From: Halothiobacillus sp.
GTDB taxonomy: Bacteria; Pseudomonadota; Gammaproteobacteria; Halothiobacillales; Halothiobacillaceae
Assembly: GCA_020061705.1 (NCBI GenBank)
Contig: JAGUXT010000036.1
Coordinates: 1-35,534, forward strand
DNA length: 35,534 nucleotides
Direction: 5' to 3'
The translations under genes were made by a program, and so were the position numbers. This document shows, in pieces, positions 19,209 through 32,858 of this stretch. The notes under the pieces are model-generated. The model did not search any database. It was not told where the DNA came from and saw only the letters and a list, made by a program, of their open reading frames with translations. Every line of letters starts with the position of its first letter. Within the stretch, counting starts at the first letter, position 1.

Positions 19209-19304
19209 AAATCCCCCTCGATCCCCCTTTTTCAAAGGGGGAGGTGGCAGCGCTTGACACCGTGTGTTCATCCCCTCTTTGAAAAGGGGGGCAGGGGGGA
19301 TTTG
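19209..19304. repeat. C-rich/G-rich inverted-repeat block (copy V)
   Basis: AAATCCCCCTCGATCCCCC plus tttttcaaaggggg on the left, and CCCCTCTTTGAAAAGGGGGG then caggggggatttg (ending 19304) on the right: nested hairpins with outer inverted ends. The core carries agcgcttgacacc, similar to agagcttgacagt in the block at 26928-27063. The block ends four bases before the ATG of the VWA gene and holds no gene of its own. Confidence 0.8.
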
Positions 19305-23455: not shown

Positions 23456-23531
23456 GTCCCCATCGTCTAGAGGCCTAGGACATTGCCCTTTCACGGCAGT
23501 AACTGGGGTTCGAATCCCCATGGGGACGCCA
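23456..23531 (+). tRNA. tRNA-Glu (anticodon TTC)
   Basis: A 76-nt tRNA with CCA encoded in the gene. The acceptor stem GTCCCC (23456-23461) pairs with GGGGAC (23522-23527), followed by G and CCA. The anticodon loop CTTTCAC (23488-23494) puts TTC at 23490-23492; the T arm is GGGGTTCGAATCCCC. It closely resembles E. coli tRNA-Glu. It is a single tRNA, not part of an rRNA operon here. Confidence 0.97.
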
Positions 23532-25464: not shown

Positions 25465-25479
25465 GTGGGTGACGCTTTC

Positions 25480-25612
25480 TGTAGGAGGGGATTTATCCCC
25501 GACCACCACGCAACCCTAATGCACCAACCCATGCCGTTGGCATAACCCCACCAAGCGAGGCAGGTTTGCGCCGTAGGTGGGAGGCTGTGTCGGGGATAAA
25601 TCCCCTCCTACA
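25480..25612. repeat. 133-bp element with 24-bp perfect inverted ends, each end itself a palindrome
   Basis: The left arm 25480-25503 (TGTAGGAGGGG, ATTTATCCCC, GAC) is exactly repeated in reverse complement at 25589-25612. Each arm contains the internal dyad GGGGAT-tt-ATCCCC. The 85-bp core has no open frame of note. A degraded single arm lies at 31719-31741. The layout is like a REP doublet (BIME). Confidence 0.8.
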
Positions 25613-25648
25613 AAATCATGTGCTTGTTGCACTATAGCAACGCATAAG

Positions 25649-26927: not shown

Positions 26928-27063
26928 AAATCCCCCCTAGCCCCCCTTTTTCAAAGGGGGGGAACAGAGCTTGACAGTCTTTTCAAAGGGGTACGCAACT
27001 GGCGATTTTTCAATGATTTGGATTAACCCTCCCCCTTTGTAAAAGGGGGACTGAGGGGGATTT
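26928..27063. repeat. C-rich/G-rich inverted-repeat block (copy L)
   Basis: Left half AAATCCCCCCTAG, CCCCCCTTTTTCAAAGGGGGG (26928-26961); right half CCCTCCCCCTTTGTAAAAGG then ggactgagggggattt (27027-27063). Each half is a hairpin and the outer ends are inverted. The core contains agagcttgacag and a gatttttcaatgatttgg stretch that has a counterpart in block R (ttttcatggatttgg). The DUF559 gene starts two bases after the block. Confidence 0.85.
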
Positions 27064-27064
27064 G

Positions 27065-27448
27065 ATGGAACTCTACAGCCCAAAACTCAAAGATAACTCC
27101 CGCAAGCTTAGAGCCAACATGACCGACGCTGAGCAGTTGTTGTGGTATCGCCTTCGACGCAAGCAAATACACGGTGTGCAGTTTTACAGGCAGAAACCGT
27201 TGCTCAACTTCATCGTGGACTTTTATTGTCCATCTGCAAAATTGGTCGTTGAGCTTGATGGTGGCCAGCATTTTGAAGATAAACATCAAGCCAAGGATGA
27301 TGCGCGGGATTTTTCACTGATGGAGTTGGGTTTGCGTGTACTGCGATTTGATAATCGACAGGTTTTGTTGGAAACGGATTCGGTGTTGGAGATGATCGGT
27401 CGGGTGGTTGAGGAGCGAATTTTGAAGCTAAATCCAAATCCCCCCTAG
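27065..27448 (+). CDS. DUF559 family protein, Vsr-like putative endonuclease, embedded in repeats
   Basis: A 127-residue protein with the DUF559 fold, related to very-short-patch-repair endonucleases. Signatures: RANMTDAEQLLWYRLRRKQI, GVQFYRQKPLLNFIVDFYCP, KLVVELDGGQH with the acidic residues of a PD-(D/E)XK-like site (D in IVDFYC, E and D in VELDGG), and LRVLRFDNRQVL. No substrate is known for the family. ATG at 27065 lies directly after the repeat gggggatttg; the TAG stop is the one inside AAATCCCCCCTAG of the next block, so the last residues NPNPP are encoded by the repeat edge. It is the only gene between two copies of the block, a sign of a mobile or repeat-associated unit. Confidence 0.88.
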   Translation: MELYSPKLKDNSRKLRANMTDAEQLLWYRLRRKQIHGVQFYRQKPLLNFIVDFYCPSAKLVVELDGGQHFEDKHQAKDDARDFSLMELGLRVLRFDNRQVLLETDSVLEMIGRVVEERILKLNPNPP

Positions 27449-27543
27449 CCCCCCTTTTTCAAAGGGGGGGGAACAGAACGGGCAGTTTTCATGGATTTGG
27501 ACTTGTTTTCCCCCTTTGAAAAGGGAGGACTAAGGGGATTTAC
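27436..27543. repeat. C-rich/G-rich inverted-repeat block (copy R)
   Basis: Left half AAATCCCCCCTAG, CCCCCCTTTTTCAAAGGGGG (27436-27470), identical to block L over about 34 bp; right half cccctttgaaaagggaggac then taaggggattta (27511-27543), more diverged. The first 13 bp overlap the end of the DUF559 gene and give its stop codon. Confidence 0.85.
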
Positions 27544-31603: not shown

Positions 31604-31741
31604 CTCATGTAGCCAGGATTGTCATCCGGGGCAGGCTCCACAACAGGCGCGATTTCTTCTGGATTCCGCTGAACGCGAAGCTGACGAAGTCCGCTTCATC
31701 CGGGTTGCGAAACTGGTGTCGGGGATAAAACTCCTCCTACA
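31604..31741. repeat. REP-like sequences between fau and 6S RNA
   Basis: aggattgtcatccgg (31616 region) and ccgcttcatccgggttgcg (to about 31712) are related to the REP-like pair at 25343-25427. They are followed by gtcggggataaa-ctcctcctaca (31719-31741), a degraded single arm of the element at 25480-25612. The same two families also lie side by side after rhlE. Confidence 0.6.
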
Positions 31742-31767
31742 AAATCACCGTCGGGCTCCAAATACAA

Positions 31768-31791: not shown

Positions 31792-31808
31792 GTGCTACGA
31801 ATTCAGGG

Positions 31809-31992
31809 GTCTTCCAGATGCGGCGTTGCTGGCTACTTACCTTGAACCGAGCGGTTCAAGTCGGGGAAGGTGAATTAAATCGTTAGGCTTTCCGTTCAGG
31901 ACGGACATGCACACGGACTTGAATACGCCAGCCCCTGAGGGATGCATTAAGGCTCAAGGGGATTGAACCAGTGAGCGCACGCCCTAGAAGAC
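31809..31992 (-). ncRNA. ssrS: 6S RNA
   Basis: About 184 nt on the minus strand between zapA and fau, the conserved ssrS position. The 5' GTCTTC (31992-31987) pairs with 3' GAAGAC (31814-31809), giving the closing stem. The 3' part reads CTTGAACCgctcGGTTCAAG, then GCCAGCAACGCCGCATCT, closely like the E. coli 3' region (TTGAACC...GGTTCAAGG, CGGCGGCATCT). The middle has the matching ggtccgtcc-like gtccgtcct and AGCCTTAA-like segments, and the central bubble is flanked by CCCCTTGAGCC and CAGGGGCTGG. 6S RNA binds sigma70 RNA polymerase in stationary phase. Ends are estimated by pairing. Confidence 0.88.
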
Positions 31993-32000
31993 TTGATTGC

Positions 32001-32756: not shown

Positions 32757-32858
32757 GGACTTGCACGAAATCGCCCCAGCGGCGCTCAAGCACCCCGCTG
32801 TACTAGTGTGTACGGTCTTCGGTGCTTTGCCTTGCTGGAACACTTTTGCGTAAGTCCT
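32757..32858. mobile_element. Second, diverged copy of the 96-bp MITE-like element
   Basis: The right terminus TTTTGCGTAAGTCCT (32844-32858) and the inner cttcggtgctttgccttgct match the element at 1954-2049 with one change over about 40 bp. The left end (ggacttgcacgaaatcgccc) is altered, so the terminal inverted repeat is damaged. It lies between the divergent zapB-like and ygfB genes. Confidence 0.65.

Follow-up and report, generated by a model that had tools for sequence, protein, structure and literature searches.

A DUF559 nuclease as candidate enzyme for the spread of G/C-rich intrastrand-triplex repeats

In a 35,534-nucleotide stretch of DNA from Halothiobacillus sp. (the whole of which was analysed and is referred to as the window), a gene for a small DUF559 protein is packed so tightly between two repeat blocks that one touches its start and the other supplies its stop codon, which raises the question of whether its product could drive the spread of the repeats that enclose it. 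The gene (27065–27448, + strand, 127 aa; PF04480, E 2e-35, 121 bits versus a cut-off of 20.6) is the only DUF559 gene in the 2.27-Mb genome (62 contigs). Each block is an inverted pair of arms, a and a', the latter being the reverse complement of the former, so that the overall order is a – a' – gene – a – a'. In the left block, arm a is C-rich (26928–26962, - strand, with the triplex motif CCCCCCTTTGAAAAAGGGGGGCTAGGGGGGATTT on that strand) and arm a' (TCCCCCTTTGTAAAAGGGGGACTGAGGGGGATTT) spans 27030–27063 on the + strand, its final GGGGGATTT ending at 27063; the ATG follows two positions later, at 27065, and another possible start codon, a TTG at 27062, lies within the arm. In the right block, arm a (27436–27470, - strand) begins with AAATCCCCCCTAG (27436–27448), to which the TAG stop of the gene (27446–27448) belongs, and arm a' (27510–27541, + strand) has a mutated stem (AAGGGAGG). 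The two left arms are identical (35/35 bp), and a third block (19209–19304) has the same arms (a, 19209–19243, - strand, 83% identical to the other left arms; a', 19272–19304, + strand) and no gene. These coordinates bear out the layout proposed in a first-pass annotation of the window, including the gene-less block and the identity of the left halves, which it had put at about 34 bp; the motifs that it saw shared between the block cores amount to a weak similarity.

The window carries other repeats and RNAs as well. A family defined by CTAGCAGCCTGTCGGACTT has three copies (19174, 23188 and 33538), one of which lies immediately upstream of the block that lacks a gene; another small family of palindromes, GTCGGGGATAAATCCCCTCCTACA, occurs as inverted and direct repeats at 25477–25503, 25589–25615 and 31716–31747; and a 51-nt direct repeat (94%) links 1997–2047 to 32808–32858, with an inverted partner at 1954–1980. 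A 6S RNA (RF00013) lies at 31807–31993 on the - strand and a tRNA at 23456–23528.

Arm a consists of AAATCCCCCCTAG followed by a hairpin, CCCCCCTTT-TTC-AAAGGGGGG. The same plan is found in the arms of all clades that we compared: stem, loop, stem, short linker and a second G run, the linker usually being two pyrimidines (variants TT, CT, CC and TTG). We noticed that the linker resembles C^TWGG, the Vsr site; the linkers are too varied for this to be claimed. Judged by its sequence, the arm is the published G/C-rich intrastrand triplex motif, made of a C-stem, a loop, a G-stem, a 3-nt loop and another G-stem (Holder et al. 2015, PMC4666352). When the window was scanned with a matching criterion (C-stem, loop, G-stem, short loop and G-third, with G.G-C and A/T.A-T triads and at most one mismatch), the only matches were the three blocks, five of the six arms fitting the motif and the exception being the mutated arm at 27510–27541. 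Genome-wide, the hairpin pattern has 38 hits per strand compared to 0 for a reversed control pattern, which, together with the restriction of the window matches to the three blocks, shows that the arm pattern is not due to chance.

These arms occupy about 16 sites of the genome, as inward pairs (a..a'), outward pairs (a'..a, with hairpin starts 74–77 bp apart) or single arms, and arm a' at 27030–27063 has a copy with 100% identity on another contig (G000:C11). Gene-less blocks are found at gene ends or within coding sequence: one lies near the start of a gspJ-like gene (G000:C4:6670–6780) and one alters the end of murG (G000:C11:23073–23165). Within the family of the window's organism, four genomes have a DUF559 gene of the same type (clade A) and all are arm-rich, three further genomes have arms without the clade-A gene, and the other 20 have neither.

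To see how general the arrangement is, we scored the flanks of 172 DUF559 genes drawn from named relatives (Gallionella, Nitrosomonas, Thiobacillus, Methylomonas, Chlorobi, Desulfobulbaceae, Acinetobacter and others), from a class sample and from plasmid-collection records (Neisseria, E. coli, Azospirillum, cyanobacteria, Deinococcus, Sinorhizobium, Photobacterium and Sphingomonas). A hairpin with a pyrimidine/purine stem is present within about 220 bp of 168 of the 172 genes, a sample that is biased to stand-alone, strong-scoring DUF559 proteins and whose members are phylogenetically non-independent, compared to 28/262 other genes in the same loci and 1/344 shuffled flanks (Fisher p 9e-50 for DUF559 versus other genes in the named subset). 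The pattern extends from beta- and gammaproteobacteria to cyanobacteria, Deinococcus and E. coli ycjD, and nearly all of the named relatives have the same arms, often placed so that they touch the ATG and the stop codon. Triplex motifs likewise flank 154/172 DUF559 genes, as opposed to 17/263 control genes, 0/344 shuffled flanks and 0/30 genes for Y1 transposases. A control geometry in which the third strand is parallel (a direct copy) is found at 140/172 DUF559 genes, so these counts do not tell the triplex geometry apart from a G run that is simply repeated in direct orientation. The orientation of the arms is conserved: the nearest upstream arm is a' rather than a in a ratio of 81:19 and the nearest downstream arm a rather than a' in a ratio of 109:29, the G run being directed towards the gene. 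A simple score for upstream/downstream inverted repeats separates DUF559 genes from controls only partly (27/77 above the 99th percentile of controls), because many loci have a downstream block alone. At seven loci (L046, L057, L067, L073, L077, L078 and L086) the DUF559 gene directly follows the end of an hsdM-like (type I restriction-modification) gene and has downstream arms alone; at two Thiobacillus loci (L050 and L053) the preceding gene is vapC-like and overlaps it by TGATG, the hsdM-like and vapC-like identities having been judged from sequence only.

The first-pass annotation had named two observations that would speak against a repeat family with a resident enzyme. One, DUF559 homologues devoid of flanking repeats, is seldom made, the hairpin being absent from only 4 of the 172 flanks. 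The other, repeats just as common beside unrelated genes in genomes devoid of DUF559, is partly borne out: the sister genome G025 contains more than 30 arms and no DUF559 gene, and 26 of the 67 repeat-positive genomes of the class sample have no strong DUF559, one of them being G184 with 172 copies; G276, G244 and G123, with 98, 22 and 20 copies, respectively, are likewise repeat-rich and devoid of DUF559. DUF559 is therefore unnecessary for the persistence of the repeats.

The stems vary with the enzyme. Clade A DUF559 genes, the type found in the window, are accompanied by CCCCCTTT stems, and those of other clades by CCCCTCTCCC, CCCTCCCCC, CCTTCCCCC, CTTCTCCCC or CCCCTCCTT, or by CCCCCAATTCTGGGGG in cyanobacteria. 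Outside clade A, the match between upstream and downstream stems is 0.91 within a locus and 0.68 between loci, and none of 2000 permutations gave a within-locus match as high. The correspondence extends to whole genomes in a class sample of 276, 60 of which have a strong DUF559 (repeat presence being defined as three or more copies, and counts ignoring kinship): the CCCTCTCCC hairpin is present in 56 genomes, 36 of them with a strong DUF559 (odds ratio 14.7, p 2e-15, kinship ignored), and the CCCCCTTT hairpin in 19, 10 of them with a strong DUF559 (p 0.002, again with kinship ignored). The stem beside the resident DUF559 gene predicts the repeat type of the genome (20/25 versus 8/26, and 5/5 versus 3/46). 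The plan that the first-pass annotation had likened to that of REP sequences and RAYT transposases is found again in different phyla, with stems that are specific to the enzyme, and the presence of each DUF559 beside its own version of the repeat in many bacteria makes this protein the best candidate for the enzyme that spreads the repeats.

Is the protein suited to such a role? A structure model built from 42 relatives (pLDDT 84.7; a single-sequence prediction, with a pLDDT of 38, was useless) matches the DUF559 protein NGO0050 (PDB 3hrl), then the catalytic domain of I-Bth0305I, PvuRts1I/AbaSI and Vsr. The match to I-Bth0305I (PDB 3r3p) is recovered both by profile (E 5e-4) and by structure (Foldseek E 1.7e-4; TM-score 0.82 by target length). 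The window protein is thus predicted to be a Vsr-like PD-(D/E)XK nuclease, in agreement with the PF04480 profile and with the first reading of the gene. The active-site residues E23, D52, E63, D65, H69 and D78 are invariant across clades, and the median dN/dS of DUF559 is 0.11, indicative of purifying selection. A report that Caulobacter VsrA, a DUF559 protein, causes DNA damage in vivo and an SOS response in cells that lack a cytosine methylase (PMC12907096) is consistent with nuclease action in vivo.

Some genome comparisons bear on mobility. Between murG and murC (G000:C11) lies a gene-less a – a' block that G023, a genome of the same genus, does not have, its sequence being uninterrupted at this place (GGCGAGA|TGGACGCG); G025 shares the insertion. 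The block has terminal inverted repeats, the a ... a' arms (AAATCCCCC/GGGGGATTT), and no target-site duplication is seen at this site, the only clean insertion found for an arm pair. The gene itself is present or absent at orthologous places. At the window site, G025 has kept arms, including the right block, and lacks the gene and the a' that precedes it, which shows gain or loss of the gene, without clean composite boundaries. In Deinococcus psychrotolerans, an a-DUF559-a' unit separates paaD from paaZ; in Deinococcus sp. QL22 the two genes are neighbours with no DUF559 between them, and the intergenic DNA is not alignable. Both sites speak to gene gain or loss, not to chemistry. No clean empty site was found for a gene-containing unit in the comparisons made in Sinorhizobium meliloti Ak57 and Deinococcus; the apparent empty site of Ak57 is in fact a gene with an internal deletion. 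Likewise, the outward pairs on contigs C57 and C1 have no clean empty counterpart, the G023 sequence there being unrelated. The Acinetobacter genes, which might have passed for many insertions, mostly belong, according to a genome search, to one syntenic neighbourhood with variable neighbours and were therefore dropped as evidence of mobility.

On balance, we regard it as somewhat probable that DUF559 is an arm-specific nuclease whose cutting leads to copying of the arm. The enzyme, of the Vsr/EDxHD type, would be specific for its cognate arm, with its C-rich stem, loop, G-rich stem, short pyrimidine-containing linker and second G-rich run, and would most likely recognise the arm in a folded form (single strand, hairpin, triplex or cruciform), perhaps nicking the hairpin, and cut at or beside the linker. 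Repair or re-insertion would then copy arm pairs, and occasionally the arm-bordered gene too, to new sites; movement of the unit as a composite of two blocks, which the first-pass annotation had envisaged, is also conceivable. Gene-less arm pairs would be non-autonomous copies moved in trans, and arms would stay behind after loss of the gene.

The same nuclease could, conversely, be a homing enzyme that cuts pre-existing arms or arm pairs, the gene being copied in by repair from a gene-bearing locus; arms would then be landing sites, and their spread would have another cause. That the homing endonuclease I-Bth0305I comes first among the non-orphan structural relatives, that the gene always lies between or against arms, that the window site of G025 bears arms and no gene and that a genome has about one gene for tens of arms all fit this scheme. 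We nevertheless consider it unlikely, as it accounts neither for the arm pair that was cleanly inserted, without a gene, at a virgin site nor for the genome-wide stems that track the resident enzyme.

Still less credit is given to the idea that the arms spread by other means (replication slippage, recombination or another transposase) and that DUF559 is a passenger moved by recombination between them, despite the repeat-rich genomes without DUF559, the known instability of the arms, which are tied to genome instability (PMC4666352), and a local tandem block duplication in G025 (about 280 bp containing an outward arm pair; G025:C180, L273:1850–2420). Indeed, comparable bordering is rare for other genes (28/262), stem and enzyme covary, and Y1_Tnp is absent from seven repeat-rich genomes and none of the 30 Y1 genes of our panel is flanked by triplex arms, which led us to reject a RAYT as the driver. 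Finally, it seems very improbable that the arms are terminators, attenuators or insulating parts of a host or defence nuclease, such as a Vsr-like repair enzyme or a modification-dependent restriction enzyme. An arm does overlap the stop codon and another abuts the start codon, several copies of the gene follow hsdM-like or vapC-like genes, the predicted fold is close to those of PvuRts1I/AbaSI and Vsr, and there is a weak PADLOC match; however, many sites far from any DUF559 gene carry these same arms, the E. coli motifs were found to have neither promoter nor terminator activity (PMC4666352), and the layout is kept in distant clades despite different stems.

Both the repeats and the nuclease family are already known; the link between them is one that we did not find in the open-licence literature (an earlier notice elsewhere is possible). 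The intrastrand triplex repeats share with our arms their motif plan, multiple copies, intergenic location and frequent arrangement in inverted pairs; TMECO, which has 23 loci in E. coli K-12, forms a triplex in vitro, and potential motifs of all classes number 988,588 in 5,246 records (scrambled genomes yield about 28% as many), while those of the G/C-rich E. coli type occur 3,610 times in 262 proteobacterial genomes (PMC4666352). No mobility enzyme was described there, the authors having found no mobility activity near their motifs, whereas we find an association with DUF559, a match between stem and enzyme, and further stems. In E. coli MG1655, TMECO no. 9 (1,351,204–1,351,239) is situated between fabI and ycjD, a DUF559 gene, at 168 bp from the latter. 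Other strains have this sequence after ycjD too, and 3,364/5,426 E. coli genomes contain the gene together with its flanks. The sapF-fabI site (L267/L268) is occupied either by ycjD and its repeats or by the eef efflux operon, as also described elsewhere (PMC12817139).

REPtrons (REP with RAYT/TnpA-REP; PMC8266576) resemble this system in their short palindromes arranged in inverted pairs, their dispersed non-autonomous copies, and a single resident enzyme gene flanked by cognate repeats with which the enzyme covaries. Here, however, the enzyme is a PD-(D/E)XK/Vsr-like nuclease and not a Y1 HUH protein, and perfect C/G-rich stems with a second G run are found in place of a GTAG-type guide tetranucleotide. 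The EDxHD homing endonucleases (I-Bth0305I) share the nuclease fold, by profile and by structure, with DUF559, itself a candidate selfish nuclease; on the side of the differences, no intron or intein was seen at the locus by inspection, and DUF559 has no extra DNA-binding domain and is flanked by multi-copy repeats. Vsr and the DUF559/YcjD proteins (PMC1189080; VsrA, PMC12907096; NGO0050) belong to the same family, PF04480, and share its fold. With classical IS or MITE elements the arm pair has terminal inverted repeats in common, but not, at the one clean empty site, a target-site duplication. A wider proposal, which we put forward tentatively and at somewhat less than an even chance, is that DUF559 and its arms form a pan-bacterial class of mobile elements, independent of REP/RAYT, in which the enzyme recognises the arm in a folded state, possibly with three strands, and causes it to spread with no duplication of the target, and that DUF559 is the missing enzyme behind the intrastrand-triplex repeats. 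These repeats are among the commonest small repeats of bacteria and were previously without an enzyme; DUF559, which laboratory E. coli has as ycjD, is a specific candidate, and in such a role it would show what a large and so far uncharacterised protein family does.
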